From positions 62,001-126,000 of the forward strand of contig JACQFL010000036.1 of the NCBI GenBank assembly GCA_016200085.1: 64,000 bases of DNA, given 5' to 3'. Source of the stretch: Candidatus Rokuibacteriota bacterium. Lineage in GTDB: Bacteria; Methylomirabilota; Methylomirabilia; Rokubacteriales; CSP1-6. Below, piece after piece: positions 30,677 through 45,184 of this stretch (the first letter of the stretch is position 1; each line of letters starts with the position of its first letter). Below the pieces are notes generated by a model that saw only the letters and a list, made by a program, of their open reading frames with translations, made no database searches and was not told the DNA's origin. Position numbers and translations under genes: made by a program.

Positions 30677-31693
30677 GTGATCACGGAGCTGTTCGGGATG
30701 GCGTCGGGGCTGGCCGAGGGGGTCGTGGCCGCCGCGGTGCCGCCTGCCTGCCGCCGGCCTCTCGATCGCCCGTCGTCGATCGCCGCTGACGGCGCCGACG
30801 TCGTCGTCGAGTCCCCCGTCTGGCGGCCGCGCGCCGGCGGCCGTCATCTCGTGCCCTCCCTGAGCGTGCTCGCGCCGGCGTCGCATCGCCTCCGTCTCGA
30901 GGTGTCCGTGCGTGACGGCACGGCGTGGTCCCCGTGGATCGCCACGGCCAGCTTCGGCGGCGGCGCCTTCGCGCCGATGGGCGATGCCTGTGCGGCGCTG
31001 CGCTGCGACGTCGACGTCTTCACCGCCGCGACCCCCGTGGAGGCGGTGCGTGTCCGCGTGCGGCTGTCCCGCGCCGAGGCGCCGGCGATCCTCGACGCAC
31101 CGTGGCTCCTCGCCCTCTCCGCATGCGACCTCGAGGGTGGGGTGGTGGAGAGCGAGGCCGGTCCGCCCGCGAGACTGCCCGTCCCCGCGCTGAGCCAGAT
31201 GACGGCCGCGCCGGAGATCGCCCGGCGAATCTGCTCGCCCACGAGCGTGGCCATGACGCTGGCGTACTGGGGGCCTCGCGTCGAGCCCGAGGCGCTGGCC
31301 GCGGAGATGAAGCACGAGGCGCTCGACATGTACGGGATCTGGCCGGCGGCCGTCGCCGCCGCCGGGCGCCGCGGAGTGCTCGGCTACCTGCTCCGCTTCC
31401 CGGACTGGGCCGCGGCGGCCTGGTGCCTGGAGCGTGGCGTGCCGGTCATCGCGTCGATCGCCTACACGGCGGGGGAGCTGGCCGGCGCCCCGGTGGAGGA
31501 GACGACCGGCCACCTCGTGGTCCTCACGGGCTGCGAGGGCCGCGACGTGCTCGTCAACGATCCCGCGGCCGCCACGGCGGCCGACGTCCCGCGGCGCTAC
31601 CGTCGCGACGAGTTCGTGCGCGTCTGGCTGGAGCGCACCGGCGTCGGCTACGTCCTGTTCAGCCCGACCGGCACTCCGGCTGCCCCATCCTGA
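30677..31693 (+). CDS. C39-like papain-fold cysteine peptidase
   Basis: A 338-residue protein. A poorly recognised beta-rich N-terminal half (about 1-165) is followed by a peptidase_C39-like domain: catalytic Cys in RRICSPTSVAMTLAYWG (about residue 181), His in TGHLVVLTG (about 278) and Asp in VNDPAAAT (about 294). Unlike C39 peptidases of bacteriocin exporters it is not fused to an ABC transporter and no exporter is near. No clear signal peptide. GTG start at 30677 is uncertain; an ATG seven codons later is possible. Confidence 0.75.
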   Translation: MITELFGMASGLAEGVVAAAVPPACRRPLDRPSSIAADGADVVVESPVWRPRAGGRHLVPSLSVLAPASHRLRLEVSVRDGTAWSPWIATASFGGGAFAPMGDACAALRCDVDVFTAATPVEAVRVRVRLSRAEAPAILDAPWLLALSACDLEGGVVESEAGPPARLPVPALSQMTAAPEIARRICSPTSVAMTLAYWGPRVEPEALAAEMKHEALDMYGIWPAAVAAAGRRGVLGYLLRFPDWAAAAWCLERGVPVIASIAYTAGELAGAPVEETTGHLVVLTGCEGRDVLVNDPAAATAADVPRRYRRDEFVRVWLERTGVGYVLFSPTGTPAAPS

Positions 31694-32101: not shown

Positions 32102-33100
32102 GTGAACCTGCGCCGGCTGCTCCACATCATCGTGCTCCTGGCCGGCGTCATCACCGCCGGCACCGCGGGCTACGTCGCCATCGAGGGCTGGCCCGTGTTC
32201 GACGCGCTGTACATGACGGTGACGACCGTGTCGTCCGTGAGCTACGGCGAGATCCACCCTCTCTCGACGACCGGGCGCGTGTTCACGCTCGGCCTGATCG
32301 TCGTCGGCCTCGGCACGGTGCTCTACGGGCTCAGCGCGATCACGGCGTTCTGGGTCGAGGGCGACCTGTCACACATGTGGGAGAGGCGAAAGATGGCGCG
32401 ACGGATCGCGGACCTCCACGGCCACATCATCGTGTGCGGGGGCGGCGACACCGGCCGCCACATCCTCCGCGAGCTGCTGGAGACCCGCACGGCGTTCGTC
32501 TGCGTCGAGCGGGACCCGGGGCAAGAGCCCGCGCTCCAGAAGCTCGGCGAGGACGTGACCTACATCATCGGCGACGCCACCGACGCCGACGTGCTGCGCG
32601 CGGCGGGCATCGGGCGGGCCCGGGGCCTCATCAGCTCGATGCCCTCCGACAAGGACAACCTCTTCGCCATCCTCACCGCCCGCGAGCTCAACCCCGGCCT
32701 CCGCATCGTCTCGCGCGTGCTCGCCGACGACACCCGCAGTCGCCTGCTGCGCGCGGGCGCGGACGCCGTGGTCTTCAACAAGAACATCGGCGCGCTGCGG
32801 CTGGCCTCGGAGCTGCTTCGCCCGCACGTCGTCGGGGTGCTCGACGCGATGCTGCGCGAGACCACCGCGGTCCGGGTGGAAGAGATCCTGGTGGGCGCCG
32901 GCGCGGCGGGTCTGGCGCTCGGGGGCCTCAAGCTGCAGGAGCGGACCGGCGTCGTGGTCTTCGCGTTCCGCGAGCGCGACACCGGGCGCTATGGCTTCAA
33001 TCCCGCGCCGGACCGCGTGCTCCACGAGGGCGACGTGCTCATCGCCTGCGCCGATCCCGACCAGCTGACGGCCGCCCGCGCAGTGGCCCGGGACGGCTGA
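32102..33100 (+). CDS. Two-TM potassium-channel-like protein with RCK/TrkA domain
   Basis: A 332-residue protein: TM1 (about 7-27), pore helix and filter (about 33-52), TM2 (about 60-80), then an RCK/TrkA-N Rossmann domain (about 106-225, HIIVCGGGDTGRHILREL) and a TrkA-C-like domain (about 250-325). This is the MthK/KtrA-like ligand-gated K+ channel layout. The filter reads TTVSSVSYGE, so the usual T-V-G-Y-G has become S-V-S-Y-G; ion selectivity may be altered. GTG start. Confidence 0.85.
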   Translation: MNLRRLLHIIVLLAGVITAGTAGYVAIEGWPVFDALYMTVTTVSSVSYGEIHPLSTTGRVFTLGLIVVGLGTVLYGLSAITAFWVEGDLSHMWERRKMARRIADLHGHIIVCGGGDTGRHILRELLETRTAFVCVERDPGQEPALQKLGEDVTYIIGDATDADVLRAAGIGRARGLISSMPSDKDNLFAILTARELNPGLRIVSRVLADDTRSRLLRAGADAVVFNKNIGALRLASELLRPHVVGVLDAMLRETTAVRVEEILVGAGAAGLALGGLKLQERTGVVVFAFRERDTGRYGFNPAPDRVLHEGDVLIACADPDQLTAARAVARDG

Positions 33101-33141: not shown

Positions 33142-33372
33142 CTACCGTGCCGGCGTCGCGGTCCCGCGCTCGAATTCCATGAGGCGACCGTGCAGGGTCG
33201 CGGTGGCCGCCTGGTACCGTCGCAGCACTTCCGCGCGGCGGCCGTCGAAGCGGGTCCGCTCGAGCGCGACGCCGATCACCAGCCCCATCACCACCAGGTA
33301 GAGTCCGAGCAGGCCGGCGCCGAGCGCGATCCGCCACGCGCGCCGCGGCCGCGCCGTCCGCGTGGCGATCAT
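33142..33372 (-). CDS. Single-span small membrane protein
   Basis: A 76-residue protein with one transmembrane segment (about 15-37, LGAGLLGLYLVVMGLVIGVAL) and a basic N-terminus, followed by a charged helix. The ATG overlaps the stop of the upstream gene (ATGA). Last gene of a four-ORF minus-strand operon with a sigma-54-type promoter. No family recognised. Confidence 0.65.
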   Translation of the reverse strand: MIATRTARPRRAWRIALGAGLLGLYLVVMGLVIGVALERTRFDGRRAEVLRRYQAATATLHGRLMEFERGTATPAR

Positions 33373-33917
33373 CGCGGGCGCCCCTCCACTCGCGCCAGGG
33401 CGGCATCGTCCCGGCCCCGGTTGAATGCCGCCACGCGCGCGACCTCGTCGGGGCGCCGCGCGATCTGCCGCGCGATCTTGACGCACTGGAGGACCACGGA
33501 GCCGTCGCCGAGCCGGTCGAACGCCCGGCACGCCCGGAGCACGCCGTCGAGCGATCCGGCCTGCCGCGCCCGGAACATCGCGGTGAGGTACGTCTGACGA
33601 GCCTGTGGCTCCGCCGCGCGCGACGACTTCGATGCCGCACCCACCCGCAGCGTGGCGTCGCCGACCGCGAGCAGCCCCTCCCAGCCGCCGCTCTGCAGCG
33701 CGGCGCCGTACGCCGACGAGACGGCGCGCACGGCGGTCGTGATGTCTCCCGCCGCGATCGCCTCGTCGGCGGCGCGCACGTGCTCCACCCACGACAGGCG
33801 CGCCGGCGCCGCGATCGCCGCGGCTTCGGCCAGCGCGAGGAGCGCCAGCGCGATGGCGACGGCCAGGACGAGGGTGATCAGCCAGCCGTCGATGTGTCGG
33901 ACCAAGGTCTGTTTCAT
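33369..33917 (-). CDS. Membrane-anchored helical-repeat protein
   Basis: A 182-residue protein. One N-terminal transmembrane segment (about 13-38, LITLVLAVAIALALLALAEAAAIAA) anchors a probably periplasmic all-helical domain with TPR-like spacing (ADEAIAAGDITTAVRAVSSAYGAA ...). Start at the ATG 33917 with GGGAGGG upstream; the track start at 33983 ignores it. Coupled to the 76-residue gene by ATGA. Function unknown. Confidence 0.65.
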   Translation of the reverse strand: MKQTLVRHIDGWLITLVLAVAIALALLALAEAAAIAAPARLSWVEHVRAADEAIAAGDITTAVRAVSSAYGAALQSGGWEGLLAVGDATLRVGAASKSSRAAEPQARQTYLTAMFRARQAGSLDGVLRACRAFDRLGDGSVVLQCVKIARQIARRPDEVARVAAFNRGRDDAALARVEGRPR

Positions 33918-33921
33918 TGGC

Positions 33922-34035
33922 TCAGCCCTCCCGCCCCGTGAGTAGGCAGGGGCGGTGCCAAATGTGCCGGCCAGCAAGATCAACGACTTGCGTGCGGCGC
34001 TCCATCCATCGGGCCTGGTGGTGGTGGTGGATCAT
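33922..34035 (-). CDS. Possible 37-residue His-rich microprotein
   Basis: This ORF exactly fills the space between two better-supported genes: its ATG overlaps the upstream stop (ATGA) and its stop lies 4 bases before the next ATG. The peptide starts MIHHHHQARW and contains another HIWHRP. The histidine run comes from a GGTGGTGGTGG tract that also occurs in non-coding DNA at 34242-34257, so it may be a DNA motif rather than a gene. Confidence 0.3.
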   Translation of the reverse strand: MIHHHHQARWMERRTQVVDLAGRHIWHRPCLLTGREG

Positions 34036-34142
34036 CCGAGCGCTTCCGCGAGGCCGAGCACGAGCACCATGAGCCCGAGCATCGCGACGGCCGCGATGAC
34101 GACGACGTCGCACCGGCTGACGATCTCCGTGTACAGCTTCAT
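34032..34142 (-). CDS. 36-residue transmembrane microprotein
   Basis: A short ORF, part of a 60-codon track entry. The product is MKLYTEIVSRCD followed by one hydrophobic span (VVVIAAVAMLGLMVLVLGLAEAL). A perfect AGGAGG (34152-34157) lies about 9 bases before the ATG, and a sigma-54-type promoter lies 30 bases upstream. First gene of the operon. Function unknown. Confidence 0.6.
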   Translation of the reverse strand: MKLYTEIVSRCDVVVIAAVAMLGLMVLVLGLAEALG

Positions 34143-34171: not shown

Positions 34172-34187
34172 GGCAGCGACGGTGCCA
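34172..34187 (-). promoter_or_regulatory. Sigma-54 (-24/-12) promoter of the small membrane-protein operon
   Basis: On the minus strand TGGCACC-GTCG-CTGCC matches TGGCACG-N4-TTGCW with the obligatory GG-N10-GC spacing. Transcription is expected near 34161, giving a leader of about 19 bases that contains AGGAGG. The gene for a sigma-54 AAA+ protein starts 105 bases away in the other direction. Confidence 0.7.
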
Positions 34188-34225
34188 GACGACGATCGTC
34201 ACGAAAACGATCACTTGAGGCTCGA

Positions 34226-34256
34226 GCGCTCTGGTGGATGCGCCTGGTGGTGGTGG
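34226..34256. promoter_or_regulatory. Candidate enhancer sites for the sigma-54 regulator
   Basis: On the minus strand CCACCAGAGCGC (34226-34237) and CCACCAGGCGC (34240-34250) repeat one motif, with extra CCACCA copies beside it. They lie 40-70 bases upstream of the -24 element. A matching CCACCAGGAGCGC lies at 41053-41065, upstream of the second sigma-54 promoter. Confidence 0.45.
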
Positions 34257-34291
34257 ATTCCTGAGCGGTGGCGGCAGTAAGATACGCGCGG

Positions 34292-38338
<4,047 letters not shown>

Positions 38339-41074: not shown

Positions 41075-41090
41075 TGGTACGCCGCTTGCC
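41075..41090 (+). promoter_or_regulatory. Sigma-54 (-24/-12) promoter upstream of paralogue 2
   Basis: TGGTACG-CCGC-TTGCC matches TGGCACG-N4-TTGCW at all but two positions and has the exact GG-N10-GC spacing. Expected start near 41101. A long GC-rich hairpin (GGCGCCGGC...GCCGGCGCC) lies between it and the coding start. Confidence 0.7.
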
Positions 41091-41167: not shown

Positions 41168-44100
41168 GTGACCGGGCCGCAACGGATCGATGGTGGTGGT
41201 GGTGGAGGCGCCGTGGCGGTGCTCGCCGATCGCCGTCGCGCGCGGAGCACCTCGCAAGCCCTCGACCTCCTGGTCGGCGAGAGCCGTGCCATCGTGGCGG
41301 TCAAGGAGAAGATCGCGCGGCTGTTCCCGCACCACGCCGTGCCGCGTCGTCCGCCGCCGGTGCTCATCACCGGCGAGACCGGAACCGGCAAGGGCCTGCT
41401 CGCGCGGGTGATCCACGCCGTGGGGGCGCGCGCCGAGGGGCCGTTCGTCGACGTCAACTGCGCCGCCATCCCCGAGACCCTCCTCGAGGCCGAGCTGTTC
41501 GGCTTCGAGCGCGGGGCGTTCACCGACGCGCGCCAGGGCAAGCCCGGGCTCTTCCAGGCCGCGCACCGTGGCGCCATCTTCCTCGACGAGATCGGCCTGC
41601 TGCCGGAAGCGCTGCAGTCCAAGCTGCTGACCGTGCTCGAGGAGCGCACGGTGCGCCGGCTCGGCGCGACGCGCAGCGAGCCCGTCGACGTGATGGTTCT
41701 GAGCGCGACCAACGAGGACCTCGCCGCCGCGGTGCGGGCGCGCCGCTTTCGCGCCGACCTCTACCATCGCCTGGCCGTCCTCGCCATCGAGCTGCCGGCG
41801 CTGCGCGAGCGCGACGGCGACGTCCTGCTCCTCGCCGACCGCTTTCTCGCCGGGGTGTGCGCCGACTACGGTCTGTCGCCGAAGTCGCTCGGTCCCGCCG
41901 CGCGCGCCGCGCTCGCGGTCCACGCCTGGCCCGGCAACGTGCGGGAGCTGGCCAACGTCATCGAGCGCGCGGCGCTGCTCGCCCAGGACGCCGTCATCGA
42001 CGTCGCCGCGCTGGGGCTCGGCGCCCCGGGCGCGCCGGCCGCCGAGCCGCCACGCCCGGCCGGCGAGCGCACCCTGCGCGAGGCCGTCGGCGACGTCGAG
42101 CGCGAGCGGCTGCTCGCCGCGCTGGAGGACACGGGCTGGAACGTCTCGCGCGCGGCCGTGCGGCTCGGGCTGTCCCGCAACTCCATCCGGTACCGGCTGG
42201 ACAAGTACGGCCTCGCCCGCGGCACGCCGCCGGGGGCACGGCCGCGTGCGGGCGCGGCCAGGCCGCCGGTGGCGCCGCGCGGGGTCGCCGACGAGCCCCG
42301 GGCGCCGCGCGTGCTGCGCTGGCAGCGGCGGCGGCTCGCGCTCCTGCGCGCGGTGGCGGCGGACTCGCCGGCCGCGCGCGGAGCGCTTCCCGTCGAGGTC
42401 CTCGTCGAGAAGGTGCAGAGCTTCGGCGGGCGCGTCCTCGAGCTCGGCCGCTCGGGGCTCATCGGCGTCTTCGGGCTCGACCCGATCGAGGAGGCGCCGC
42501 GGAGCGCGGCGCTGGCGGCGACGGCCATCGTCAAGGCCGCCGAGCACCACCACCGCGCCACCGGGGCGGGGACCGGGGTCCGCGTGGGCCTGCACGCCGA
42601 CCAGCTCCTCGTCGGTCACCTCGACGGCGTGCCGTCGCTCGACAGCGAGTCGCGGCGGGCGGCCATCGAGATCCTCGAGCGCGTGGTGGCGGTGGCGCCC
42701 CCCGACGTCATCGCGCTGAGCTCGGGCGCGGCGGCCCTCGTCGAGCGGCGCTTCGACGTGGTGCCCCTGGCGTCAGGCGAGAACGGCGTCGGCCCGGTCT
42801 ACCGCCTCGCGGGCCGCGAGCGGGCCGGCCTCGACGTCGAGGGGCGGATGACACCGTTCGCGGGACGGCGGCACGAGGCGGCGCTCCTCGACGCCGTCCT
42901 GGCCACGGCGACGACGGGCCGCGGGCAGATCGTGGGGATCGTCGGCGAGGCCGGCATCGGCAAGTCGCGCCTCCTCCACGAGTTCCGGCAGAGCCTCGCC
43001 GGCCGCGGCGTGACGTATCTCGCGGGCCAGTGCGTGTCCTATGGCGCGGCCACGCCGTACCTGCCGGCGCTGGAGATGCTGCGCGACGCCTGCCGGCTGA
43101 CCGAGGCCGACACCCCCGAGTCGACCGCGGAGAAGCTGCGCTGGCACCTCACGGAGATCGGGATGGACGCTCCCGAGGCGGCGCCGTACCTGCTGCGCCT
43201 GCTCGGGGTGCGCGAGGGCACCGAGCGGCTCGCGCCGCTCACGCCCGAAGCGGTGACGACGCGGACGTTCGACGTGCTGAGGGAGATGGCGCTCGCGGGA
43301 AGCCGGCGCCGGCCGCTCGTGCTCGCCGTGGAGAACCTCCACTGGATCGACGCATCGACCGAAGCGTACTTCGGCGCCCTGGCCGACAGCCTCGCCGGCG
43401 CCCCCATCCTCCTGGTGTGCACGTTCCGTCCCGGCCGCCGCCCGGCGTGGATGGACCGCTCGTACGCCACCCAGGTCGCGCTCGCCCCGCTGTCACGCGA
43501 GGACAGTCTCGCCGTCGTGCGGTCCCTGCCCCAGGCGAGCGCGATCCCGCCGGCGCTCGCCGACGTGATCGTCGACAAGGCCGACGGCAACCCGTTCTTC
43601 CTGGAGGAGCTCGGTCGCGTGGTCGCGCAGCGTCCCGGGGCGGAGGAGTCGATCGAGATTCCCGGCACGCTCCAGGACGTGCTCCTGGCGCGCATGGATC
43701 GGCTGGCTCCCGAGACGCGCCGGCTGCTCCAGGTCAGCGCGGTGGTCGGGCGCGAGGGGCCCGTCCGCCTGCTCGAAGCGGTGTGGGACGGCGAGGGCGT
43801 GGCCGCGCCCCTCGGCGAGCTGAAGCGGCTCGAGTTCCTCGACGAGCGGCTCCGGGGCGAGGAGACGAGCTTCGTCTTCCGCCACGTGTTGACCCACGAG
43901 GTGGCGTACGAGAGCCTGCTGCCCGCCGAGCGCGCCCAGCTGCACGCGGCCGTGGGCCGGGTGCTCGAGGAGACGCACGCGGGACGGCTGGACGAGGCGT
44001 CGGGAACGCTCGCGCACCACTTCTCGCGCGCGGGCGACGCGGCCCGCGCGGTCGAGTACCTCCGCCGGTTCGCCGACGGCGCCGCGCGCAGCTACGCCCA

Positions 44101-45184
44101 TGCCGAGGCGGTCACCTCCTTGCGCGCGGCACGGGCCCACGCCGAGCGCCTGCCGGCCGGCCGCGACGCCGTGCTCGCCGACCTCGTGCTGCGGGAGGGC
44201 CGCTCGCTGCATTTCCTGGGACGGTTCGCCGAGAACCGCGAGCTGCTGGCGCAGCACGCCGCGCTCGTGGCGCGGCTCGCCTCGCCCGCGGCGAACGGCC
44301 ACTATCACCTCCTGGCCGGCCTGACGGCGAGCCACCTGGGCGACCCGGAAGCCGCGGCGGAGAGCGCCTCGCTCGCGATCGCGGCCGCGGGCGCGTGCGG
44401 CGATACCCGGACCCTGGGACGCGCGCACGTCCTCGTCGGCGTGGGCACGCTGTGGTCGGGACGGCTGCGCGAGGGCCTCGAGCACTGCCGCGCAGCGACG
44501 GCGGTCCTGGACGCGGCCCAGGACCCGAGCTGGCTCGGCCAGGCGCACTACGTGACCGGCCTCTTGCATTTCATGCGCGGCGAGTTCCCGGAGGCCCTGG
44601 CCGCCGAGGCGGAGGCCGACGCCATCGGCGCCGCCGCGGGCGACCGCCGCCTCCGCACCCACGCCGCCTGGACGACGGGCCTCGTGGAGGTCTACGGCGG
44701 GCGCCCGGCCGAGGGGATTGCGTGCTGTCAGCGTGCCGTCGAGGCCGCGCCGGACTCCTTCAGCGCCGCCGCCGCGGAGAGCTTCCTCGGCTGCGCCCTC
44801 AAGGAGGCCGGGCGCTTCGACGAGGCGATCGAGCGGCTCGAGGCGGCGGCCCGTCGCCTGGAGCGGTTCCGCTTCCGCCAGCAGCAAGGACTGGCCACGG
44901 CCTGGCTCTCCGAAGCGCTGCTCGGCGCCGGCGACGCCGCCCGCGCGGCGAGCGCCGCCGCCCGTGCGGTGGAGATCACGGACGAGGCGCGCTACGCGGC
45001 AGGCGCCGCCGTCGCCCGCCGCGCCGTCGGCCGCGCCGCGCTGGCCCGCGGCGACGCCCCAACGGCGGTGACCGCGCTGCAGGACGCGCTCGCCCGCTTC
45101 CAGTCAATGGAGATGGCGTACGAAGCCGCTCGCACCGAACACGCCCTCACCGAGGCCCTCGTCGCGACGCTGAATCATTCGTGA
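41168..45184 (+). CDS. Sigma-54 AAA+ activator fused to HTH, pseudo-cyclase, STAND ATPase and TPR (paralogue 2)
   Basis: A protein of about 1,338 residues with the same order of domains as the one at 34292: AAA+ with GETGTGKG (69-76) and GAFTDA (116-121), Fis-type HTH (about 322-350, WNVSRAAVRLGLSRNSIRYRLD), degenerate cyclase-like domain (LGRSGLIGVFG), second P-loop GEAGIGKS (593-600) with VENLHWIDAS, and TPR-like helices. The two are clearly paralogous throughout. Start uncertain: the GTG at 41168 is the first after the sigma-54 promoter; GTGs at 41213 and 41219 remove a six-glycine stretch coded by GGTGGTGGTGGTGGA. Two hairpins follow the stop. Confidence 0.82.
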   Translation: MTGPQRIDGGGGGGAVAVLADRRRARSTSQALDLLVGESRAIVAVKEKIARLFPHHAVPRRPPPVLITGETGTGKGLLARVIHAVGARAEGPFVDVNCAAIPETLLEAELFGFERGAFTDARQGKPGLFQAAHRGAIFLDEIGLLPEALQSKLLTVLEERTVRRLGATRSEPVDVMVLSATNEDLAAAVRARRFRADLYHRLAVLAIELPALRERDGDVLLLADRFLAGVCADYGLSPKSLGPAARAALAVHAWPGNVRELANVIERAALLAQDAVIDVAALGLGAPGAPAAEPPRPAGERTLREAVGDVERERLLAALEDTGWNVSRAAVRLGLSRNSIRYRLDKYGLARGTPPGARPRAGAARPPVAPRGVADEPRAPRVLRWQRRRLALLRAVAADSPAARGALPVEVLVEKVQSFGGRVLELGRSGLIGVFGLDPIEEAPRSAALAATAIVKAAEHHHRATGAGTGVRVGLHADQLLVGHLDGVPSLDSESRRAAIEILERVVAVAPPDVIALSSGAAALVERRFDVVPLASGENGVGPVYRLAGRERAGLDVEGRMTPFAGRRHEAALLDAVLATATTGRGQIVGIVGEAGIGKSRLLHEFRQSLAGRGVTYLAGQCVSYGAATPYLPALEMLRDACRLTEADTPESTAEKLRWHLTEIGMDAPEAAPYLLRLLGVREGTERLAPLTPEAVTTRTFDVLREMALAGSRRRPLVLAVENLHWIDASTEAYFGALADSLAGAPILLVCTFRPGRRPAWMDRSYATQVALAPLSREDSLAVVRSLPQASAIPPALADVIVDKADGNPFFLEELGRVVAQRPGAEESIEIPGTLQDVLLARMDRLAPETRRLLQVSAVVGREGPVRLLEAVWDGEGVAAPLGELKRLEFLDERLRGEETSFVFRHVLTHEVAYESLLPAERAQLHAAVGRVLEETHAGRLDEASGTLAHHFSRAGDAARAVEYLRRFADGAARSYAHAEAVTSLRAARAHAERLPAGRDAVLADLVLREGRSLHFLGRFAENRELLAQHAALVARLASPAANGHYHLLAGLTASHLGDPEAAAESASLAIAAAGACGDTRTLGRAHVLVGVGTLWSGRLREGLEHCRAATAVLDAAQDPSWLGQAHYVTGLLHFMRGEFPEALAAEAEADAIGAAAGDRRLRTHAAWTTGLVEVYGGRPAEGIACCQRAVEAAPDSFSAAAAESFLGCALKEAGRFDEAIERLEAAARRLERFRFRQQQGLATAWLSEALLGAGDAARAASAAARAVEITDEARYAAGAAVARRAVGRAALARGDAPTAVTALQDALARFQSMEMAYEAARTEHALTEALVATLNHS

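Follow-up and report, generated by a model that had tools for sequence, protein, structure and literature searches.

A predicted sigma-54 promoter of the Rokubacteria and its divergent candidate activator, an enhancer-binding protein with a STAND-type C-terminal part

The window, by which we mean the whole analysed stretch of 64,000 nucleotides, belongs to the genome of a member of the Rokubacteria, a soil bacterium. Three small genes on its minus strand, which would code for a membrane peptide (gene 1), a membrane-anchored protein (gene 2) and a second small membrane protein (gene 3), lie divergent from the gene of a large protein with the domains of a sigma-54 activator. The space between the two groups holds a predicted sigma-54 promoter (P1), an IHF-like site and a putative operator, and the same set of elements, ending in a second predicted promoter (P2), stands again in front of gene 2 (Table 1).

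Table 1. Genes and predicted control elements of the locus, in positions of the window.
Feature	Position	Strand	Remarks
Predicted sigma-54 promoter P1, TGGCACCGTCGCTGCC (-24/-12)	34187..34172	minus	from sequence and positional conservation in relatives
Predicted P1 transcription start	G34161	minus	from sigma-54 geometry, 12 bases 3' of the -12 GC
Ribosome-binding site AGGAGG, gene 1 leader	34157-34152	minus	perfect match
P1 IHF-like site, CAAGTGATCGTTT	34205..34217	minus	7/9 of YAANNNNTTGATW; alone not significant, position conserved in relatives
P1 putative operator/enhancer (UAS), ATCCACCACCACCAGG	34243..34258	minus	centre at about -88, counted from the predicted start; covaries with the recognition helix
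Gene 1, 36-aa single-pass membrane peptide, MKLYTEIVSRCDVVVIAAVAMLGLMVLVLGLAEALG	34032..34142	minus	perfect Shine-Dalgarno sequence; GC at third positions 34/36
P2 putative operator/UAS, ATCCACCACCACCACCAGG	34014..34032	minus	abuts the gene 1 stop codon
P2 IHF-like site, CAAGTCGTTGATC	33978..33990	minus	8/9; 0/200 shuffles as good
Predicted sigma-54 promoter P2, TGGCACCGCCCCTGCC	33960..33945	minus	same build as P1; 43 bp before the gene 2 ATG (33917)
Gene 2, 182-aa protein	33369..33917	minus	all-helical, TPR-like domain behind an N-terminal TM helix; target family conserved in relatives
Gene 3, 76-aa membrane protein	33142..33372	minus	start overlaps the gene 2 stop (ATGA)
TAAGAT, -10-like element of the activator gene	34278..34283	plus	8 nt before the ATG (near-leaderless); conserved in relatives; by inspection
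Activator gene, 1351 aa	34292..38347	plus	domains by Pfam/profile matches and model
Activator HTH_8	35150..35257	plus	recognition helix ISRNTIRYR, Tyr class
C39-type peptidase gene	30677-31693	plus	beside sigma-54 target genes in 12 relatives' loci
RCK potassium channel gene	32102-33100	plus	beside sigma-54 target genes in 5 relatives' loci

P1 reads TGGCAC-N5-CTGCC, with the GG and GC doublets at the -24/-12 spacing, and it departs from TGGCACNNNNNTTGCW in two places; its -12 box is CTGC rather than TTGC, which counts against the promoter reading. Much of this arrangement had been described from the letters of the DNA before (hereafter the sequence-only reading), and the particulars are borne out: the -24/-12 spacing of the element at 34187..34172 is as claimed, the leader of about 19 bases with a perfect AGGAGG before an open reading frame of 36 codons is present (19 nt from the predicted start to the ATG at 34142), and the activator, said to lie about 105 bases away, has its ATG at 34292, a distance of 105 bp when counted from P1's -24 end. 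The genome also carries an RpoN gene (PF04552, E 1.2e-61), on whose presence that reading had hinged. No RNA structure beyond that of shuffled controls was found in the P1 and P2 leaders.

P2 had been overlooked, and the region holds two predicted sigma-54 promoters, not one. An element ATCCACCACCACC(ACC)AGG lies upstream of both of them at a similar distance, and between operator and promoter, approximately 30 bp upstream of the -24 T, most loci of the activator family, P1 and P2 included, have an element resembling the IHF consensus YAAN4TTGATW; the individual matches are mostly weak, and the evidence lies in their constant position. Genes for both IHF subunits were identified in the genome, the beta gene above the NCBIfam cut-off and the alpha gene 2 bits below it. 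Since gene 2 has its own predicted sigma-54 promoter and its own operator, the idea of one operon behind one promoter does not hold; the broader proposal of the sequence-only reading, that promoter, target genes and cognate activator lie together, does.

The targets are small membrane-protein genes, as had been proposed, with the correction that the conserved target is not the 36-aa peptide: in relatives the gene behind the promoter is a homologue of gene 2 or a paralogue of it that lacks the TM helix, and in many of them this TM-less paralogue is the next gene of the operon. The gene 2 family has no Pfam entry. Its AlphaFold2 model (pLDDT 93) shows a TM helix followed by six helices, and nearest to it are TPR and designed helical-repeat proteins, with no match in the PDB below E 0.001; TPR_4 gives a single weak match (E 0.015) among 25 members of the family. 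In one relative (G044) the target is fused to a TM domain with homology to gene 3 (40% across 60 aa; E of the pair 7e-13), and because of this fusion the small membrane partners are considered to belong to the system.

The standing of gene 1 is the point on which another explanation survives best. The 36-aa ORF could be the remnant of a tandem duplication that took in the operator, the promoter and the first part of gene 2, and not a working gene. The P1 and P2 modules are indeed built alike with similar spacing, the first gene in relatives is usually a gene-2 homologue, and the peptide weakly resembles the TM segments of such homologues (shuffle Z up to 4.3); however, BLASTP gives no alignment between them, and for this reason we do not accept the peptide as a proven paralogue of the gene 2 TM segment. 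The perfect Shine-Dalgarno sequence and the strong third-position GC also speak for a working gene, stand-alone TM partners do occur in the system, with gene 3 as an example, and short single-TM ORFs stand directly behind the sigma-54 promoter at two other loci (L027, 52 aa; L042, 43 aa), without clear similarity to the 36-aa peptide. On balance the peptide is probably translated, and the duplication remnant keeps an appreciable, if lesser, share of our confidence.

Sigma-54 activators usually sense their signals through an N-terminal domain. In the 1351-aa protein no such regulatory domain (usual for bacterial enhancer-binding proteins, bEBPs, although not obligatory) was found, and the AAA+ domain begins at residue 9 and extends to residue 179 (PF00158, Sigma54_activat, E 1.6e-59; Walker A GETGTGK). 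The GAFTDA loop occurs in every family member in which the loop is readable, and a Fis-type HTH follows at residues 287-322 (HTH_8, E 8e-11). The next segment (about 355-520) is a class III cyclase domain, with profile matches to adenylate cyclases only (best E 4.7e-5) and weak matches to PF00211 in 6 of 14 family members; on inspection against the known cyclase motifs, its consensus reads LLRAxL and SPTGxVAAFG where the motifs with the aspartates would stand, and the domain is taken as a pseudo-enzyme since the two metal-binding aspartates are absent. Residues 539-722 form an AAA_16/STAND NTPase (AAA_16, E 4e-25), from which TPRs (TPR_12) continue to the C terminus, and there is no PTS regulation domain (PRD) among the Pfam matches. 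The model of residues 331-1351 (pLDDT 85, pTM 0.60) has the STAND-TPR protein 6mfv as its top PDB match (E 1.5e-15); Avs3, Apaf-1 and CED-4 are among the next. Judging from these matches and the model, the activator is probably a bEBP with a C-terminal STAND-type sensor. Proteins that match its C-terminal part alone are widespread, and the full fusion Sigma54_activat-HTH-STAND-TPR was found, among the genomes searched, in this class only. A scan of named genomes with the C-terminal part gave 80 loci and no near relative; at a single one of these loci (L087, Rokuibacteriota AR44) is the sigma-54 part placed immediately upstream and in line.

The loci of the family share one alignable element just upstream of the activator, roughly YTG[TC]TCAA-N3-TNN-ACCA, and this putative operator takes three forms, TTG-ACCA (TTGACCA), TTT-ACCA (TTTACCA) and TCC-ACCACC (TCCACCACC), which go, in the same order, with activator helices of the types ISRNTxRAR, -RSR and -RYR, that is, with residue A, S or Y. 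Predictions for 7 paralogues were written before the helices of 20 further paralogues were read, and they held in 7/7 (taken alone, p = 0.048). Counted over every readable case, Tyr is paired with CCACC-type operators in 11/11 and the other residues with the other operators in 19/19 (Fisher 2e-8, relatedness ignored). A tree built without the HTH places one large Ala clade among the Tyr proteins and a separate Ser clade; the helix therefore changed independently only a few times, and the covariation is partly phylogenetic, because operator and helix are inherited together. A simple GGT repeat was discarded as a description of the operator, since non-repetitive variants take the same position and track the recognition helix. 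The P1 UAS is thus supported as the predicted target of the adjacent activator, with an operator variant that tracks one helix residue across relatives. In three paralogues with ITRN/VTRN-type helices (L067, L069, L081), the operators are palindromic (CTGGTGG-ATTTT-ACCACCAG and variants); their sigma-54 sites lie at 108-117 bp, before genes of seemingly secreted proteins.

The promoter might also be driven mainly by another bEBP, with the neighbour being incidental or a repressor. A second STAND-fused activator, encoded 7 kb away on the plus strand of the window (41213-45184), is 50% identical and has the same Tyr-class helix, so that both proteins should read CCACCACCACC, and the genome has several further bEBPs besides. 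Against this, the divergent layout is kept across genera and the operator variant follows the helix of the adjacent protein, and we consider a different main activator improbable.

The genome-wide counts given here come from pattern searches. The combined operator and promoter pattern, CACCACC-N40-70-TGGYAYN6TGC, has three matches in the genome of 3.57 Mb (P1, P2 and C17:109593-109663) vs one in the reversed control. The third lies approximately 100 bp before the sole other gene-2 homologue of the genome (38% identity), on contig C17, to which none of the 13 activator-family matches in the genome belongs. Behind this target (L197:6082-6680 = G000:C17:109075-109663) comes an operon for branched-chain amino-acid ABC transport, with a Peripla_BP_6 protein and permeases. 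In relatives, TTGACCA plus promoter gives 23 matches (22 distinct promoters) vs 5 in the reversed control, and 14 of the 22 distinct promoters have a gene-2 homologue behind them, some with no activator within 1.5 kb. The CACCACC pattern likewise precedes further gene-2 homologues with no activator within 1.5 kb in five genomes (G037, G038, G044, G046, G047); across 57 genomes, however, it is about as frequent as the reversed control, and its matches are therefore counted only where they are tied to target genes.

As a motif, P1 is ordinary: the window has 12 matches with two mismatches vs 14.4 expected, and with a matrix built from relatives P1 takes fifth place in the window, where random sequence would give about 1.9 such scores per 64 kb. 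Motif significance was dropped as evidence for this reason. Its position is another matter. Among the 29 Rokubacteriales loci of the activator family that have enough upstream sequence, 20 show a strong sigma-54 site that stands on the divergent strand, at a distance of 100-126 bp to the activator, and 9 have no strong site at that position; the other strong sites within 1 kb of these loci amount to 2 on the same strand (one being P2 of the window) and 4 on the opposite strand. Full-length relatives of the activator are present in most genomes of its family, and the wider neighbourhood is kept (the C39-type peptidase gene in 12 fetched loci, the potassium channel in 5), which implies that the loci are orthologous places. 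A chance match, meaning a random GC-rich hexamer pair beside small genes read from an ordinary housekeeping promoter, is very improbable, for although scores and two-mismatch sites are as common as in random or shuffled sequence, chance would explain neither the position fixed in 20/29 loci, nor the conserved operator, nor a genome-wide pattern tied to one gene family, and a scan of low power found no sigma-70-like promoter between 33000 and 34500. P1 thus stands above chance by position and context, not by motif, because of these 20 loci, the fixed positions of operator and IHF-like element, and the three genome-wide matches, of which two precede members of the gene-2 family. From this evidence we strongly infer that P1 is a sigma-54 promoter, as predicted; the observation of the sequence-only reading is confirmed, and its interpretation is supported and extended.

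Taken as a whole, the locus is very probably best explained by a genuine RpoN-dependent promoter at 34187..34172 whose enhancer-binding protein is the divergent 1351-aa protein. The following sequence of events can be proposed. The activator would be made from its near-leaderless housekeeping promoter (TAAGAT), and its Tyr-class Fis HTH would bind ATCCACCACCACCAGG, approximately 88 bp before the predicted start; IHF would bend the DNA at about -50, and the AAA+ ring, with its GAFTDA loop, would open the closed complex of RpoN-polymerase at P1, at P2 and at the third promoter, on the other contig (C17). The products would be the 36-aa membrane peptide, the membrane-anchored TPR-like protein with its small membrane partner, and the TM-less paralogue. 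The C-terminal STAND NTPase-TPR part most likely gates the activity: it would keep the protein inactive, and binding of a ligand or partner to the TPRs would lift this state and favour ring assembly. The operator adjoins the conserved TAAGAT, and autoregulation of the activator would therefore be allowed. The predicted promoter, the operator, its match with the activator and the targets are supported by sequence comparison, and the bending by IHF, the gating by the STAND-TPR part and the autoregulation are what we infer from it.

The regulatory layout is of a known kind. In the DVU2106-orp1/orp2 system of Desulfovibrio vulgaris, the EBP site lies at about -88 to -131 and overlaps the activator's own sigma-70 promoter, an IHF site lies at about -43 to -79, there are sigma-54 promoters, and a GAFTDA loop is functional in an active bEBP (PMC4641369, PMC3897727). 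Both are one-component bEBPs with GAFTDA and with EBP, IHF and sigma-54 sites at much the same distances; DVU2106, however, has not been described with a STAND-TPR tail, and its targets are orp and cell-division proteins. PspF and pspA likewise combine a bEBP that lacks an N-terminal regulatory domain with a target product at the membrane, but the control of PspF lies with a distinct anti-activator, PspA (PMC4987338), whereas the present protein carries a large fused C-terminal part. LevR-type bEBPs also have their regulatory part at the C terminus, unlike most bEBPs, and use PTS regulation domains for it (PMC4987338), of which the Pfam matches of the present activator include none. The predicted fold of the C-terminal part is shared with the STAND NTPase with a TPR sensor 6mfv, and also with Avs3, Apaf-1 and CED-4; the present protein differs from these in that the same chain holds a sigma-54 AAA+ domain and a Fis HTH. 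Finally, the cyclase-AAA-TPR part matches the TOMM kinase/cyclase fusion (TIGR03903) over residues 392-1299, far below the cut-off (269.5 vs 705.75 bits), with the kinase domain absent and the cyclase degenerate.

The architecture of the regulator is not found described: a limited search of open-access papers found no account of a STAND-fused bEBP and no paper that names Rokubacteria and sigma-54 together. A bEBP with a STAND NTPase-TPR tail would unite in one chain two AAA-type machines, of which one opens promoters and the other assembles in response to a signal. The paralogues and the operator variants that match them form a natural experiment on DNA reading by Fis-type helices and a means of regulon prediction in the phylum, and among the targets is a family of proteins that Pfam does not list. 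We also put forward, tentatively and as possible rather than probable, a class of bEBPs under a C-terminal, apoptosome-like STAND switch, in which TPR sensing and NTP-driven STAND assembly would nucleate the AAA+ ring, the operator code would lie largely in one helix residue (A, S or Y), each paralogue would serve its own envelope genes, and feedback from the membrane TPR-like targets to the activator could occur, much as PspA acts on PspF.

The second STAND-fused activator has control elements of its own. The best-scoring sigma-54 site of the window (TGGTACGCCGCTTGCC, 41075-41090, plus strand) points into its gene, and a CCACCACCACCACC element lies near its start (41188-41205); sigma-54 autoregulation is possible for this protein.

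Other genes behind similar sites were noticed in relatives. In three genomes (G014, G018, G019; loci L226, L229, L230), CACCACC and a sigma-54 site precede a gene that, read by eye, is lpxC-like (lipid A synthesis), so that sigma-54 control of this essential envelope gene is possible there. CDP-alcohol phosphatidyltransferase-like genes, also read by eye, lie directly behind sigma-54 sites at L043 / L063 and L223, the one at L043 being divergent from a Ser-class STAND-fused activator, and genes of sterol-desaturase-like proteins, identified by reading and not by a family search, were seen behind similar sites. These three kinds of protein point to the envelope, and sigma-54 has been proposed to control the bacterial exterior in general (PMC3162934).
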